Origin: Gemmatimonadota bacterium
GTDB lineage: Bacteria > Gemmatimonadota > Gemmatimonadetes > Gemmatimonadales > Gemmatimonadaceae
Length of the DNA: 5,726 nucleotides
Direction of reading: 5' to 3'
NCBI GenBank assembly: GCA_947457715.1
Contig: CANGXK010000183.1
Span: 1-5,726 of the forward strand
Shown: positions 15 through 5,669 of the stretch, piece by piece
How positions within the stretch are numbered: the first letter of the stretch is position 1
Layout: each line of letters begins with the position of its first letter
The notes under the pieces: model-generated
What the model was told of the DNA's origin: nothing
The model's input: the letters and a program-made list of their open reading frames with translations, nothing else
Database searches by the model: none
Made by a program: the position numbers and the translations under genes

Positions 15-398
15 TCAGCACCCCCCCCCCACCAATCCCCCCGCCGCATTCGCCACCACATCCGCCCATGCCGCCGACCGGGCCGGAGGCACCCCGATCG
101 ACTGCAAATACTCCACGCCCAGCGAGAAGCCAGCCGACAGCAGCAGCACTCCCCGCCACCGCACACCCAGTCCGCCCAACGCCAACCCAAACGGCGCAAA
201 CAACACCACGTTGCTGATGCCATCGGTAAGCCACAAACCACCGCAGGCCAGGCACCACCGAGGTGGCATCTGGCCTGCGGCGGTTGCGCCAGACGGAGCC
301 AGCGTAGCCAGCAGCACCAGCCCTACGCCAGCCGCCAGTATGCCCCGCCAAACCCACCACTCCGTACGTCGACTCACCACTCCGTACGCACCCTTCAC
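15..398 (-). CDS. VanZ-like membrane protein, C-terminus probably frameshifted
   Basis: This 127-residue frame has VanZ-family hallmarks. Hydrophobic segments lie at about residues 14-34, 61-79 and 83-103. A conserved N-x-x-L-F-x-P-F-G block is at 63-71, and the family signature follows: E96-Y-L-Q99, R107, W111-x-D113 and N117-x-x-G120. A C49-x-x-C52-G loop precedes the second membrane segment. VanZ was named from a teicoplanin-resistance cluster; most homologues have no known function. The start is a GTG touching the TAG stop of the upstream dehydrogenase, so the two are probably cotranscribed and translationally coupled. Two in-frame GTG codons at residues 7-8 are alternative starts. The frame ends in G-G-G-C right after a run of ten G (coding strand), whereas other frames stay open to the window edge. 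This suggests a homopolymer frameshift. Family assignment is confident; the C-terminus is not. Confidence 0.8.
   Translation of the reverse strand: MKGAYGVVSRRTEWWVWRGILAAGVGLVLLATLAPSGATAAGQMPPRWCLACGGLWLTDGISNVVLFAPFGLALGGLGVRWRGVLLLSAGFSLGVEYLQSIGVPPARSAAWADVVANAAGGLVGGGC
355..388 (-). repeat. 14-bp direct repeat at the VanZ-like gene start
   Basis: CACCACTCCGTACG (plus strand) occurs at 355-368 and again at 375-388, a 20-base period. The two copies lie within the first 15 codons of the VanZ-like frame and are read in different phases, so selection on the protein sequence does not explain them. In gene orientation each copy reads CGTACGGAGTGGTG, a GGAG followed by two GTG triplets. The copy nearest the start supplies the alternative GTG starts at residues 7-8. 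Confidence 0.7.
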
Positions 399-1577
399 CT
401 ACTTGAGCACCGCCTTCGCGATCGTCTGCAACTGCATGTTGCTCGTTCCCTCGTAGATCGTGCCGATCTTCGCGTCACGATAGAACTTCTCCACCGGATA
501 CTCGCGCGTGTACCCGTAGCCGCCGAACAGCTCCACGCATAGCGACGTCACGCGTTCGGCCATCTGCGACGAGTACAACTTCGCCATCGCCCCTTCACGC
601 GCGATGTCCTGACCCGCGTCCTTCAAGCGTGCCGCGTTGTACACCATGAGTCGCGCGGCTTCGAGTTCGGTGGCGGCCTGCGCCACCTGAAATTGAATGC
701 CCTGGAATTCCGCGAGTGCCTTGCCGAACTGCTTGCGCTCTTTCAGGTGCGCCACTGCCGCCGTGAGCGCACCCTGCGCCACGCCGATCATCTGCGCCCC
801 GATCCCGATGCGGCCTTCGTTCAGCGTTTCGATCGCGATCTTGTAGCCGATGCCCACGTCGCCCAGCACGTTCGCGTCACTCACAAAGGTGTTCTCGAAG
901 TGCAGCGACGTCGTGCTCGAGGCGCAGATGCCAAGCTTGTGCTCCTTCTTGCCCACCGCGAAGCCGGCCGTGCCGCGTTCCACGATGAACGCCGTGATGC
1001 CCTTGTAGCCCATGTCCGGGCGCGTGTTCGCGAACACCACGAACACATCGGCTTCACCACCATTCGTGATCCACGCTTTCGATCCGTTCAGCGTCCAGCC
1101 GCCGTCCACCTTCTCGGCGCGCGTGGCCAATCCGAACGCATCGGAACCCGAACCCGGCTCCGACAGCGCGTAGGCGCCGATCGTGCCCGCCGTCATACGC
1201 GGCAAAATGCGCGCGCGCTGCTCGGCGTTGCCGTAGCGATACAGCGGGTAGTTCACGAGCGTGTTCTGGACGTCCACCTGAATCGCTGCCGACGCGTCTA
1301 CTTTGCTGAGCTTTTCCACCGCGATCGCGACCATCATGAGCGATCCACCGGCACCCCCCACGTCTTCAGGCAGTTCGATGCCCATTAACCCCAGCTCCAC
1401 GAACTTTGCGGTCAGTGCGGGGTCGATCTTGCCAGCGTCCTCCATTGCCCGCACTCGCGGCTTGACTTCCGTTTCGGCCAGATCGGCCACGGCGGCGCGG
1501 AACAGCTCCTCCTCCTCGGAAAACAACGTGAGGGGGGCGCGGGAAAGGTCGGGAAGAGAGGAAGCAGTCATCGCCAT
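399..1577 (-). CDS. Acyl-CoA dehydrogenase, short/branched-chain type
   Basis: A complete 392-residue flavoenzyme expected to oxidise acyl-CoA to trans-2-enoyl-CoA using FAD and pass electrons to electron-transfer flavoprotein in the cytoplasm. Domain order is canonical: N-terminal helices (about 15-130), the beta domain with the flavin/substrate motif YALSEPGSGSD (136-146) and WITNG (169-173), then the C-terminal helical domain with RKQFGK (281-286). The catalytic base is Glu376 in the YEGTSN motif near the end. Stretches such as SKVDASAA, GYKGIT, LNEGRIG and FYRDAKIGTIYEGTSN closely resemble, from memory, mammalian ACADSB (2-methylbutyryl/isobutyryl-CoA dehydrogenase). A role in branched-chain amino acid or short-chain fatty acid breakdown is therefore likely, but the substrate cannot be fixed from sequence. 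Length is normal for the family. The chosen ATG has no strong Shine-Dalgarno; a second ATG lies two codons in. The stop abuts the GTG of the VanZ-like gene. Confidence 0.95.
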   Translation of the reverse strand: MAMTASSLPDLSRAPLTLFSEEEELFRAAVADLAETEVKPRVRAMEDAGKIDPALTAKFVELGLMGIELPEDVGGAGGSLMMVAIAVEKLSKVDASAAIQVDVQNTLVNYPLYRYGNAEQRARILPRMTAGTIGAYALSEPGSGSDAFGLATRAEKVDGGWTLNGSKAWITNGGEADVFVVFANTRPDMGYKGITAFIVERGTAGFAVGKKEHKLGICASSTTSLHFENTFVSDANVLGDVGIGYKIAIETLNEGRIGIGAQMIGVAQGALTAAVAHLKERKQFGKALAEFQGIQFQVAQAATELEAARLMVYNAARLKDAGQDIAREGAMAKLYSSQMAERVTSLCVELFGGYGYTREYPVEKFYRDAKIGTIYEGTSNMQLQTIAKAVLK

Positions 1578-1625: not shown

Positions 1626-2666
1626 ATGAGAAGCGGTAGAACGGGTGTGGTCATCACGGTCGCTGTGGTCGCCTACGGCTTGGGCATGGCGTTTGTTGCC
1701 GCGGCCATTGCCACGGCGGGGGACAGCACGGCGCTCGGCATGCTGTTCCTGTTTGGTCCGCGCTGGATGCTGCTCGGTCCGTGGATCCCCCTGCTGCCGC
1801 TCGCGGTCCTCGCCTCACGTCGTACGGTGCTGTTCGCGCTGGCCGGCACCGCGGTCACCCTCCTGTTTGTGAGCGGATTCGAGGTGCCGGTGCCGAACGC
1901 TCCGTGGCGTGGGGCAGAGCATGCTCCGTCGTTGCGAGTCGTCACCTACAACACCGACGGCTCGATGGCGCTGGCATCGCGTATCGTAGCGGATCTGATC
2001 GACTGGGACGCCGATGTGGTCGTGTTGCAGAGCTGTTCACCGGAGGTTGGTATCGTCCTGCAGCGGGTCGCGAGGGTGCGCTCCGTTCCACACTCCTACG
2101 AGATACACCGGGACGACGAGTTCTGCGTCGTGTCCCGACTCCCGCTGCGGAGGCTGGTGAGGAAAGCGCCCGAACGCGGCTCCCGCGAAGAGGGTCGTGC
2201 GCTTCGGTTCTCCTTTATTTGGAATGGGACGCCCGTCTCCATGGGCGCCGTGCATCTCCCGTCGCCGCGCGATGCCCTCGCCGCCGCTCGCCGGGGAAAC
2301 CCCACACTCCTCGACGGCAGTATCCGGGTGCGCTACCGGGCATCCCGGTCAACGGCCACCTGGATTCACGACCGGCGGGCATCGACCGCCGAGGTCGTGG
2401 TGGGAGACTTCAATCTGCCGGCCGAAAGCCGCGCGCTGCGCAAAGATTGGGGCGCACTCCGAAACGCCTTCAGTGAAGTCGGCTGGGGCTTCGGACACAC
2501 CATGTTCGCCGGACGTCATCAGGTGCGGATCGACCACGTGCTGGTCTCCGACGCTGTCTCCGTCCGGAAGGTCACGGTGCTTTCCGGGTACCCGTCGGAG
2601 CATCAGCCGGTCGTGGCCGACCTGGGGGTCGCGCCGAAAACGGGCAACGTCGGGGCGCTACCGTGA
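1626..2666 (+). CDS. Membrane-anchored endonuclease/exonuclease/phosphatase-family protein, catalytic Glu missing
   Basis: A 346-residue protein with two parts. Residues 8-30, about 38-63 and 68-84 are hydrophobic and probably form three membrane segments. Residues 102-335 carry the endonuclease/exonuclease/phosphatase (EEP) fold. Visible motifs in order are VVTYNTDG (105-112, Asn109), VSRLPL (169-174), AVHLPSP (208-214, His210), GDFNLP (260-265, Asp261 and Asn263), RIDHVL (301-306, Asp303) and SEHQPV (324-329, His326). The layout resembles YafD-like membrane EEP proteins. Family members are Mg-dependent phosphodiesterases or phosphatases acting on nucleic acids, phosphoinositides or sphingomyelin; the substrate here is unknown. 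The motif normally reading L-Q-E, whose Glu binds the metal, reads L-Q-S (Ser136), and S-D-H has become S-E-H. Activity is therefore uncertain. The next gene begins 93 bases downstream on the same strand, so cotranscription is possible. Confidence 0.85.
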   Translation: MRSGRTGVVITVAVVAYGLGMAFVAAAIATAGDSTALGMLFLFGPRWMLLGPWIPLLPLAVLASRRTVLFALAGTAVTLLFVSGFEVPVPNAPWRGAEHAPSLRVVTYNTDGSMALASRIVADLIDWDADVVVLQSCSPEVGIVLQRVARVRSVPHSYEIHRDDEFCVVSRLPLRRLVRKAPERGSREEGRALRFSFIWNGTPVSMGAVHLPSPRDALAAARRGNPTLLDGSIRVRYRASRSTATWIHDRRASTAEVVVGDFNLPAESRALRKDWGALRNAFSEVGWGFGHTMFAGRHQVRIDHVLVSDAVSVRKVTVLSGYPSEHQPVVADLGVAPKTGNVGALP

Positions 2667-2759: not shown

Positions 2760-3362
2760 ATGCATTCGTGGCCCGATCGGCTTCGCTCGGCCCGGCGAGT
2801 GGCTTCGCTGCTGCGGAACCTGAACGGACCGGCCCGCAAAGCGGCGGTCGGCCGTCTGCTCGAATCGAGCGGTGCCCGTCGCGTCCGGCTGGCGCGCGCC
2901 GCCCCGGCGGCGCCGGCGCGTTTGATCATCGTGTGCCACGGCAACATCATGCGCAGTGCGTTCGCGGTGGCCTACCTGCGACAGTTGGCGCCTGAAATCG
3001 CTCCGCGCATCCTCGGGGCGGGTACGAACGCCACGGTCGGTCGCGCAGCGCAGGATTCGGCGGTGCGGGTCTCGCCGGAGTTCGGCGTACCGCTCGATGC
3101 GCATACGGCGCTTCCGCTCGACCGCGTAACGCTTGGCGCCCACGACGTGATCGTGTGCATGGATCGCGCGAACGAGGCGAACGTGATCGCGCGGTATGCG
3201 ACGCATGCCGAGCGCGTATTTCTCGTGGGCGACGGTGCGGATGATACGTTGGCCGATCGCAGCGTTGAGGATCCGTATGCGCGTGGAGATGACGCGACGC
3301 GTGCGGCCTTTCAGCAAATCGTCGCGCACGTGCGGCGATGGCTTGCGCTGATCGATCGTTGA
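2760..3362 (+). CDS. Low-molecular-weight protein tyrosine phosphatase with N-terminal extension
   Basis: A 200-residue protein whose residues 55-199 match the low-molecular-weight phosphotyrosine phosphatase family (the fold shared with ArsC-type arsenate reductases). The phosphate-binding loop is V58-C59-H-G-N-I-M-R65-S66, a valid C-x5-R-S signature with nucleophile Cys59. The general-acid loop is E170-D171-P172-Y173. With both present, catalysis by the usual cysteinyl-phosphate route is expected in the cytoplasm. The second Cys common in this loop (CxGNxCRS) is Met64 here. Family members are usually about 150-160 residues; the extra 50 or so at the N-terminus are strongly basic and end in an Ala/Pro-rich linker. 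Bacterial members often dephosphorylate tyrosine kinases that control exopolysaccharide export, but no kinase is in this window. A purely arsenate-reductase role is less likely given the DPY motif. Confidence 0.9.
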   Translation: MHSWPDRLRSARRVASLLRNLNGPARKAAVGRLLESSGARRVRLARAAPAAPARLIIVCHGNIMRSAFAVAYLRQLAPEIAPRILGAGTNATVGRAAQDSAVRVSPEFGVPLDAHTALPLDRVTLGAHDVIVCMDRANEANVIARYATHAERVFLVGDGADDTLADRSVEDPYARGDDATRAAFQQIVAHVRRWLALIDR

Positions 3363-3617
3363 GCGCCAATGGTCGTGTCGCACCGGTGTCCAGCGAGCAG
3401 GGTTTTGTGTTCTAGCGCACCAATAATCGTTTCTCTCGCGGTACCTGACTCGACAGTGTGATGTGGCACACAGTAGAGTGATAGAGAAATGCTGGAATAG
3501 CGATTTGTATCACATTCCCCAATGAAAAACGCCGTTACCCTCCATTGCAGTTGTCGTCTAAAAGATGAGTCTGCAAGCGTTATTGATCCCGCGTGTTGAT
3601 ACCGCAAGTACTGACTC
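3363..3617. other. AT-richer intergenic leader, no gene recognised
   Basis: About 255 bases between the phosphatase stop and the riboswitch. Composition falls visibly, to near 50% GC, against coding DNA on both sides. The promoter for the riboswitch-lipoprotein transcript is expected here, but I cannot place a convincing -35/-10 pair. A pair with TTGATC at 3583-3588 and AGTACT at 3607-3612 would start transcription near G3619, the first base of the aptamer stem, but the match is weak. A GTGTG/CACAC inverted repeat with a 6-base loop sits at 3456-3471. No intrinsic terminator with a U-tract follows the phosphatase gene. Confidence 0.5.
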
Positions 3618-3715
3618 TGGGAACGACAAAGGCAAACCACGCGAAAGCGTGGGACGCAAAGCTGCGGGGCTACAGCGCACACCGACCGGTGTTCGCCATG
3701 CCAGCCGGGCTCCCG
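3618..3715 (+). promoter_or_regulatory. Cyclic di-GMP-I (GEMM-I) riboswitch aptamer
   Basis: The stretch matches the GEMM-I consensus as I know it from the Vibrio cholerae Vc2 RNA. The core GGCAAACC (3631-3638) is followed by a perfect 6-bp hairpin, CCACGC (3637-3642) with GCGTGG (3647-3652), capped by a GAAA tetraloop. Then comes the near-invariant GGGACGCAAAGC (3651-3662). GC at 3632-3633 closes with GC at 3661-3662. The second hairpin has GCT (3669-3671) with AGC (3703-3705), then GCG/CGC and ACACC/GGTGT (3675-3683 with 3688-3696). The closing stem P1 pairs GGGA (3619-3622) with TCCC (3711-3714). By alignment, ligand-contact positions G20, A47 and C92 of Vc2 correspond to G3631, A3658 and probably C3706, so c-di-GMP binding looks intact. 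It lies in the leader of the lipoprotein gene, 18 bases before its ribosome site. Confidence 0.93.
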
Positions 3716-3733
3716 AACGCGATTGGACCCGTT

Positions 3734-3738
3734 GGAGG
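3734..3738 (+). promoter_or_regulatory. Lipoprotein ribosome binding site, possibly sequestered by the riboswitch
   Basis: GGAGG sits 5 bases before the ATG at 3744, which sets that ATG as the start rather than the in-frame TTG at 3723. GGA of this site plus the following GGCCC can pair with GGGCTCC at 3707-3713 if one G is bulged. That segment contains most of the 3' strand of the aptamer P1 stem, so the two pairings exclude each other. This suggests translational control in which ligand binding exposes the site. Confidence 0.65.
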
Positions 3739-3743
3739 CCCAT

Positions 3744-5669
3744 ATGCACCCCAGGATGCAGCGGTTGGTTTTCGCCGCGACAGTAGTTGTTTTGACCGCG
3801 TGCAGTCAGGATGGCCCGGTCAGCCCGACGGACATGCTGAATCCGTCTGAAGCAGGCGGAGCCACTGCGAGCTACGCCGTCGTTCTTGCCGACGGCAGCA
3901 CGCAGCTGAAGGTCGGCGAAAGTGTGACACTTCGTGCCAGCACCCTTGTGCGGCTCAGCCGCACGGTCTGGTGGAGCAGCAGCAATACGAGCGTGGTCTC
4001 GGTGACTTCCACTGGGACGAGTACCGGGCGCGCCGTAGGCACGGCGACCGTAACCGCGCTCGGCAGTAACGGCCGTCGGAGCACCTTTACAATCAGGGTA
4101 GTCAGCGCCACCACGCAGACGGCCGCGGTGGTTGCCTCGGTCGATATCACCGCTCCGTCGCCATCGATGGAAGTGGGCAGTTCGATGACCTTGTCGGCGA
4201 CCCCGCGAGATAGCGCAGGCAACTGGATTCCGGGGCGAACGGCGACGTGGAGCGTCTCGGATGGCTCGGCTTTCACCATCAGTGCCACCGGGGTGGTCAC
4301 GGGAGTGGCGCCTGGCTCGGCCGTTGCGCTAGCGACCATAGATGGAGTGACCAACGGTCGCTATCTCACGGTGACCGGATCGACGCAAACGCCAACAGTC
4401 ACGGCATTGGCGATTTCCCCGAAGACCGGTGCGACTCTTGCACCAGCGCAGACGCGACAGTTTTCTACGACAGCGAGGTGGTCGGACTTGGCCACTCGGG
4501 CTGTGAGCGTCACGTACTCGGCAACGGGAGGCACTATCTCCAGCAGCGGTCTCTATACGGCCGGTCAGCTTGCTGGCACGTTCATGGTGATTGCCAACTG
4601 TGGCTGTGACCGGGCGGATACGGCCACGGTCGTGGTAGCGTTGCCGACGACACCCACGGCACAACTGACGAGCCTGAAGATCAGCCCGGAGTCGGTCAGT
4701 GTGGCACCTGGTGCAGCGCAGCAGTTCAGCACTGCGGCAAACTGGAGCACTGGAGCGACTACGCTTCCGCCGCTCTCGTATTCGGCGACGGGTGGTACGG
4801 TATCGGCAACTGGGCTGTATTCTGCTCCCACGGCTGCCGGCACCTATCGCGTGATCGTGGCGCACACCGGCGGTACGCTGAAGGACACGGCCACGGTCGT
4901 TGTCATCGATGGTTCCACTGGCGTGGTCACCCCGCCAGCAACCACTGTCGGCGCTGGGCCGAACCAGCCTGCGGGATTTACGGTGATCTACTCGAACCCG
5001 ATGGGCACGCTGCCGCCCAAGAGCCCGGCCACCGACGTCTTCGGATTCCAGCAGTACTTTGGAACGTCGGCGCTTTCGGTGCGGAGCGAGACGTCGGTGC
5101 CGGACTTTCTGCGAGCCACCTTCCCAGCCGGAACGGCCGGTGGCGCCGACTACCCGAACGCCTTCCGTGCCGGATACGGGTTCTCGTCCTCGGGCACGAA
5201 GTCCCGCCTTTACGTACGAGTCCGTTTCCGTCTCTCGTCGAACTGGACCGACAATGGCAACACGGGCACCAAGTTCTTCTTCTTCAGCCAGCAGCAGGGG
5301 AATAATCACTACGTGAACCTGACGGAAGGAGGGCAGTTCCTTCCGGCCGTGAGCATGCAGAGCACCTTCGGGTTCGGGACACCCAGTGGGCCGAATCACT
5401 TCGTGGCGCAGCCACTGACGAAGGGGGTCTGGCATGAGATGGAAATCCTCATCGTGGCCAACACCGCTGGCGTGTACAACGGACAGGTGCGGATCTGGGT
5501 GGACGGTGCGCTGATGCAGAGCGCGAACGACATGGGGTACTTCGCTGCGGGCACGACGCCTCGCTTCGAAGAGATGTATTTCAATCCCACCTACGGCGGT
5601 GGCCGGAATCCCGTGCCGGCCGACCAGTATCTCGATCTTGACCACTGGTACGTGTCCGGGGCTCCATAG
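3744..5669 (+). CDS. Riboswitch-controlled lipoprotein: four Ig-like domains plus ConA-like/polysaccharide-lyase-like domain
   Basis: A 641-residue exported protein. The N-terminus has a short basic stretch, a hydrophobic core (8-17) and a lipobox L17-T-A-C20. Lipidation at Cys20 with Ser at +2 predicts outer-membrane location. Four Ig-like (bacterial Big_2-type) domains follow at about 44-120, 131-211, 218-300 and 305-388. The last two are close copies sharing Y-S-A-T-G-G-T and D-T-A-T-V-V-V. A Thr/Pro linker (about 389-410) leads to a C-terminal beta-rich region (411-640) with KFFFFSQ (510-516), W563-H-E-M-E, V-R-I-W-V-D-G (582-588) and D631-L-D-H-W-Y-V. This pattern recalls concanavalin A-like lectin/glucanase and alginate/glucuronan-lyase-like folds, but I cannot assign a catalytic class. 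The likely role is surface or matrix polysaccharide binding, possibly cleavage. The upstream c-di-GMP riboswitch fits a biofilm adhesin. The start follows from GGAGG at 3734-3738. Confidence 0.85.
   Translation: MHPRMQRLVFAATVVVLTACSQDGPVSPTDMLNPSEAGGATASYAVVLADGSTQLKVGESVTLRASTLVRLSRTVWWSSSNTSVVSVTSTGTSTGRAVGTATVTALGSNGRRSTFTIRVVSATTQTAAVVASVDITAPSPSMEVGSSMTLSATPRDSAGNWIPGRTATWSVSDGSAFTISATGVVTGVAPGSAVALATIDGVTNGRYLTVTGSTQTPTVTALAISPKTGATLAPAQTRQFSTTARWSDLATRAVSVTYSATGGTISSSGLYTAGQLAGTFMVIANCGCDRADTATVVVALPTTPTAQLTSLKISPESVSVAPGAAQQFSTAANWSTGATTLPPLSYSATGGTVSATGLYSAPTAAGTYRVIVAHTGGTLKDTATVVVIDGSTGVVTPPATTVGAGPNQPAGFTVIYSNPMGTLPPKSPATDVFGFQQYFGTSALSVRSETSVPDFLRATFPAGTAGGADYPNAFRAGYGFSSSGTKSRLYVRVRFRLSSNWTDNGNTGTKFFFFSQQQGNNHYVNLTEGGQFLPAVSMQSTFGFGTPSGPNHFVAQPLTKGVWHEMEILIVANTAGVYNGQVRIWVDGALMQSANDMGYFAAGTTPRFEEMYFNPTYGGGRNPVPADQYLDLDHWYVSGAP
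4395..4907 (+). repeat. Tandem duplicated Ig-like domains 3 and 4
   Basis: Two successive units, about 4395-4643 and 4656-4907, encode similar domains. Both contain an I-S-P start, a Q-F-S-T segment, Y-S-A-T-G-G-T, G-L-Y and a closing D-T-A-T-V-V-V strand. Similarity persists in the DNA: the 14-mer ACGGCCACGGTCGT occurs at 4620-4633 and 4887-4900. This points to an internal duplication. Unit 3 differs by carrying a Cys-x-Cys pair (residues 286 and 288) that unit 4 lacks. Confidence 0.75.

Follow-up and report, generated by a model that had tools for sequence, protein, structure and literature searches.

The window, by which we mean the whole 5,726-nucleotide stretch of Gemmatimonadota DNA analysed here, carries a c-di-GMP-I (GEMM-I) aptamer directly upstream of a lipoprotein gene (Table 1). 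The best explanation as a whole, which we hold with moderate confidence, is a c-di-GMP-sensing GEMM-I switch that acts on translation of a matrix-type lipoprotein and leans towards activation. The aptamer would sense c-di-GMP and thereby control synthesis of a surface lipoprotein whose probable role is to bind or cleave polysaccharides of the matrix. The locus so links c-di-GMP with a matrix-type protein, in a phylum that has received little study. The sensor is of a known kind, and its one uncommon feature, supported but not proven, is the involvement of the coding sequence in the switch.

Table 1. Features of the riboswitch locus and of related leaders (positions without a locus handle are those of the window)
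Feature	Position	Strand	Basis
LMW phosphotyrosine phosphatase gene	2760..3362	+	precedes the riboswitch in the window; adjoins it in 4/6 orthologous loci
CUGGG 5′ of P1, candidate partner of codons 2-4 (predicted helix P0)	3617..3621	+	duplex tests
c-di-GMP-I (GEMM-I) aptamer	3622..3718	+	cmscan, canonical contact positions
G20 (3631) and P2 hairpin, GAAA loop 3643-3646	3631..3657	+	cmscan alignment, sequence
A47-A49	3658..3660	+	A at 47 fits the consensus of RF01051 and departs from that of RF03167 (G)
P3 hairpin, G83 at 3704	3660..3711	+	cmscan alignment
C92, predicted ligand-pairing base	3713	+	numbering of PMC3764141 (excerpts); C in 90/90
Possible Shine-Dalgarno hairpin (putative P4)	3720..3747	+	aptamer-constrained folds
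Shine-Dalgarno GGAGG	3734..3738	+	sequence; invariant in 7/7 leaders
641-aa lipoprotein, lipobox Cys20, Big_2 domains, C-terminal PL14-like jelly roll (residues ~412-641)	3744..5669	+	
Codons 2-3, CAC CCC, nucleotide-level conservation	3747..3752	+	42/42 codon pair-sites identical
Tandem A20 + G20 leaders	L059:1316-1613, L057:1319-1614, L064:1319-1614, L015:1345-1602	+	
Tandem A20 + G20 leaders	L085:699-994, L103:1501-1786, L035:1475-1770	-	
Loci with the GGCAGGATCGC-like motif	L044, L045, L050, L052, L054, L057, L061, L066, L067, L068, L069		

The aptamer and its family

A cmscan search of the window at E≤1 returned a single Rfam match (65.9 bits, E 2.1e-14) and no second aptamer. The first-pass annotation had placed a GEMM-I aptamer at 3618-3715; that aptamer is real, and its coordinates were correct to within 4 nt. 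Every part that had been listed is present, namely the GEMM-I core GGCAAACC, the GAAA-capped P2, GGGACGCAAAGC, the P3 hairpin and P1, the last of which is short in the window (pairs C3624-G3715 and G3625-C3714, with A3716 unpaired). The predicted contact bases are likewise conserved, with canonical letters at G20 (3631), A47 (3658) and C92 (3713) and also at C22, A23, A25, G32, A35, G42, C44, G45, A48, A49 and G83; numbering and conserved positions follow excerpts of PMC3764141, with C59, G79 and G90 outside the mapping. Three features that mark members of the class, a P2 with a GAAA loop, the interhelical C44/G83 and the P1 apex pair G14-C93, are all found in the window.

The label printed by cmscan was RF03167 (c-di-GMP-I-GGC, gathering score 59); its output omits two further clan matches that overlap this one. 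We read the window RNA as an ordinary c-di-GMP-I aptamer to be filed under RF01051, with c-di-GMP as its predicted ligand. A covariance-model match had been suggested as the check on the aptamer; in the window the match above gathering score is to RF03167, and it is at six orthologous sites that RF01051 exceeds its own cut-off of 35 (62.6-76.0 bits). At the five orthologous sites with both scores RF01051 is always the higher (70.1-76.0 versus 63.1-66.2 bits), the sixth (in genome G272) having no RF03167 bit score listed and standing outside this comparison. Because RF03167 was printed even though RF01051 has the higher bits at these orthologous sites, the winner was presumably ranked by E-value and not by bits, and the conflict illustrates that a clan winner can point to the wrong ligand class. 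Membership of the variant class c-di-GMP-I-GGC, with a ligand other than c-di-GMP, is very improbable for this RNA. RF03167 does rank first and above its cut-off both in the window (65.9 versus 59 bits) and at one orthologous locus (L002), but the bit scores favour RF01051 and position 47 is A in the window (A3658) and in all 90 matches, from 80 sources, of a model-based alignment, as in the RF01051 consensus, whereas the RF03167 consensus has G. These 90 matches all carry C at position 92 and vary at position 20 (G in 76, A in 13, C in 1); the window reads G/A/C at positions 20/47/92. The 'GGC' of the RF03167 name probably denotes these same three positions; the G at position 47, whose defining status is taken from consensus and name, is not found in the window.

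Aptamers with A at position 20, which we take to be the mark of the 3′,3′-cGAMP type (GEMM-Ib), make up 13 of the 90 aligned matches, and 11 of these 13 also carry G48. Seven of the 13 are closely followed, on their own strand, by a second aptamer of the G20 type. These tandem leaders consist of the A20 aptamer, in several cases a competing terminator-like strand, and then the G20 (c-di-GMP-type) aptamer before the gene, an order that makes two-signal switches possible. A scripted look at 30 loci of a pattern search found 31 A20 sites, 28 of them with the core; a strand complementary to the aptamer 3′ end followed by a T-rich stretch, a terminator-like arrangement given here as a raw and uncontrolled count, was present at 18 of the 31, while a G20 aptamer lay downstream of five and another A20 aptamer downstream of two. 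In genome G005, at L177 and at the listed sites G005:C36:1984, 2141 and 2298, starts of A20 aptamers follow one another in twos or threes at a spacing of ~157-160 nt. The GEMM-I aptamer at L053:1133-1249 is alone among the 90 aligned in carrying C at position 20. Additionally, a GGCAGGATCGC-like motif occurs ~40 nt 5′ of many G20 aptamers and is absent from the window. The literature, in the excerpts used here, treats position 20 as a selectivity factor of the aptamer and describes tandem GEMM-Ib switches in Geobacter.

The lipoprotein gene and its surroundings

The start codon (ATG, 3744) follows the end of the aptamer after 25 nt, and the protein is, as had been annotated, a lipoprotein with Ig-like (Big_2) domains and a C-terminal domain of the ConA/jelly-roll type. 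This C-terminal domain has the jelly-roll fold of polysaccharide lyase 14 and is closest to the PL14/PL36 alginate lyases (5gmt, 6kcw, 3gne) at 13-17% identity; the Pfam PL14 model scores 20.4 bits on the protein, below its cut-off of 27. Compared with these lyases, the window protein is fused to Ig-like domains and a lipobox, and it is lyase-like in fold. The adhesin role first proposed for it is no more than a possible one: given the PL14/PL36-like fold and the polysaccharide genes near its relatives, a matrix-cleaving or matrix-binding role appears at least as likely. A search of a species-genome collection with the window lipoprotein found three loci, all in Gemmatimonadetes/Gemmatimonadota MAGs.

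Neighbouring genes were surveyed at the six orthologous loci by scanning 19 of the 22 ORFs of at least 180 aa. Polysaccharide genes lie near the riboswitch in four of the six: an O-antigen ligase and a glycosyltransferase at L071, a glycosyltransferase and the capsule gene PGA_cap at L073, one glycosyltransferase at L074 and two at L002. None was seen among the neighbouring ORFs scanned at L072 and L075. From these neighbours of its relatives, the window itself would appear to lie at a polysaccharide locus. The LMWPc gene is found upstream of the riboswitch at L072, L073, L074 and L075. Farther upstream, the window holds genes for a VanZ-like protein (15-398, reverse strand), an acyl-CoA dehydrogenase (399-1577, reverse strand) and an Exo_endo_phos protein (1626-2666, forward strand), and an Exo_endo_phos gene is also present near L072. 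A sigma-70-like promoter match (TCGACA, 18 nt, TAGAGT; 9/12) lies 5′ of the riboswitch at 3450-3479 of the forward strand.

The same riboswitch-gene pair was sought in related genomes, and it recurs, with the entire leader common to six other genomes. When the leader DNA was searched against 288 genomes of the order, 94 gave some match and six gave one reaching query base 135 or beyond. A covariance model was built from the seven leaders, leaving aside the 5′ flank and codons 2-4. Against 395 genomes of the phylum it recovered those six again with 128.8-141.4 bits (window, 143.6), and its next match scored 88.6; the seven score high by construction, having built the model, and the informative part is the gap beneath them. 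At E≤1e-20, 32 of the 288 genomes have proteins matching a relative of the window protein. Their loci, together with the window, contain 37 ORFs that resemble the window protein at BLASTP E≤1e-10; much of this similarity lies in the Big_2 repeats, so that not all are strict orthologues. With three N-terminally cut ORFs set aside, 17 of the 34 with complete N-termini have an aptamer match at their start, of the A20 type in two (L138, L152), and 17 have none. The pairing of aptamer and lipoprotein is therefore frequent and not universal. The two A20/G48 aptamers, at L138:3126-3211 and L152:1886-1967, lie directly 5′ of Ig-like lipoprotein genes resembling that of the window.

Matches to RF03167 at E≤0.001 occur in 204 of the 395 sampled Gemmatimonadota genomes, and in 92 they exceed the cut-off. 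Riboswitch clan matches are thus common in the phylum, whereas a full-text literature search combining the phylum name with riboswitch and c-di-GMP returned nothing on the topic, as judged by title. In the excerpts of the literature found, the RF03167 variant is merely named or used as a drawing template. The suggestion that the pairing may be new holds in that no account for this phylum was found; it does not hold for the kind of pairing, since GEMM-I aptamers before attachment or surface proteins are known from the excerpted literature.

Expression platform and the first codons

The Shine-Dalgarno (SD) sequence begins 15 nt past the aptamer, and a consensus scan of 3360-3900 found no terminator-like site on the forward strand. 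Together these make translational control the natural reading, and the most likely one. Control of transcription or RNA stability, for example by Rho-dependent termination, is unlikely: the scans used are blind to Rho-dependent sites and the sign of the change in SD accessibility is inconsistent between leaders, but the closeness of the SD to the aptamer and the missing intrinsic terminator-like site argue against it.

For translational control, the proposed mechanism would have the SD region (3734-3741) paired, in the absence of ligand, with the 3′ strand of P3 (~3707-3713), and the C-rich codons 2-4 with a G-run in the leader. Ligand binding would keep P3 closed and relax the grip on the SD, making an ON response somewhat more likely. 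When the window is folded without constraint, its SD region is paired to the P3 3′ strand. Across leaders this duplex has a z of -2.3, and matching to the leader's own partner is absent (permutation p 0.76). The aptamer is the minimum-energy fold in none of the seven leaders, with mean probabilities of 0.01-0.40 for its pairs. A possible alternative hairpin over the SD, P4, forms in 6/7 aptamer-constrained folds and in 7/7 linkers folded alone; its core pairs are invariant among the seven leaders, and its energy lies below mononucleotide shuffles at the 5% level in none of them.

All seven leaders are followed by CAC CCC at codons 2-3, a fixation that suggests that the control region probably reaches into the coding sequence. 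Wherever two of the ORFs share an amino acid, the codons are identical at 42/42 pair-sites for codons 2-3 versus 1974/4242 (47%) elsewhere, in a test that is post hoc, the motif having been noticed first, and among ORFs that are related and yet differ freely at synonymous sites elsewhere. Only five of the 52 columns with one amino acid in all seven (Met and Trp excluded) use a single codon, codons 2 and 3 among them, and the rest of the signal peptide around these codons evolves freely. We tentatively propose that the expression platform extends past the start codon, with CAC CCC pairing with a leader G-run located either 5′ of P1 or in the P3 5′ strand. The run 5′ of P1 gives a z of -3.5 (permutation p 0.05), and the P3 5′ strand gives -3.2 (permutation p 0.38). 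If this is true, the coding sequence itself belongs to the switch by which c-di-GMP controls a lyase-like lipoprotein at a polysaccharide locus.

A serious possibility is that codons 2-3 are fixed for a reason other than pairing, such as a preferred His-Pro start or efficient initiation. Pairing with the run 5′ of P1 falls below 5% of a leader's own shuffles in just three of the seven. Among the 120 homologues listed, window included, 29 have His-Pro right after the inferred start, while 13 further ones begin with Met, then Tyr, Phe or Leu, then Pro, and Pro3 may itself be favoured. The Met-His-Pro start is also found behind the different, A20-type aptamer of L138. An amino acid preference would have to contend with the fixation of synonymous sites as well, since Pro codons elsewhere in the seven ORFs are identical at 104/214 pair-sites and CCC accounts for only 32 of their 179 Pro codons. 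The fixed CAC CCC codons offer a cheap test of a coding-sequence role in the switch.

Direction of control and comparison with known systems

Folding models slightly favour c-di-GMP turning the gene ON rather than OFF. Enforcing the aptamer lowers the cost of opening the SD in the window (7.3 to 4.5 kcal/mol) and raises it at L071 (6.5 to 7.5 kcal/mol). The seven-leader mean is lower with the aptamer in 6/6 settings, by 0.2-1.6 kcal/mol; for the segment from the SD through the AUG, it is lower in 4/6 settings and higher in 2/6. The opposite direction, in which folding of the aptamer leaves the SD and some of the start codon locked in P4 and c-di-GMP turns translation OFF, is somewhat less likely. 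The recurrence of P4 in 6/7 aptamer-constrained folds speaks for it, as do the costlier opening from SD through AUG with the aptamer in L071 and L073 and, in excerpts of the literature, the precedent of Vc2 as a translational OFF switch. It is weakened by the failure of P4 to fall below 5% of shuffles in any leader and by the window SD, which is easier to open with the aptamer in place.

Within its own family, the window RNA resembles RF01051 in architecture, in G20, A47 and C92, in C44 and G83 and in the P1 apex G14-C93, and differs in its very short P1, in the SD 15 nt past the aptamer and in the fixed codons 2-3. With RF03167 it shares a score above the gathering threshold and differs in having A, not G, at position 47. 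Beyond these families, our comparisons draw, besides PMC3764141, on excerpts of PMC4744006, PMC9262584, PMC6456294, PMC8835794, PMC11477304, PMC12452182, PMC9943018 and PMC11124144. They offer precedents for either direction of control. According to these excerpts, the class I switches of C. difficile turn transcription OFF, and one of them precedes a calcium-binding adhesion protein, while class II ON switches govern the C. difficile adhesins CD2831 and CD3246. They also report that Vc1 of Vibrio cholerae acts positively, raising the expression of gbpA in response to c-di-GMP. The window and Vc1-gbpA are alike in having a GEMM-I aptamer ahead of a secreted surface factor that recognises polysaccharide and in positive regulation, which for the window is the slightly favoured direction; the two differ in that the excerpted accounts describe no anti-SD seen in Vc1 and in that the protein family of Vc1-gbpA is not that of the window.
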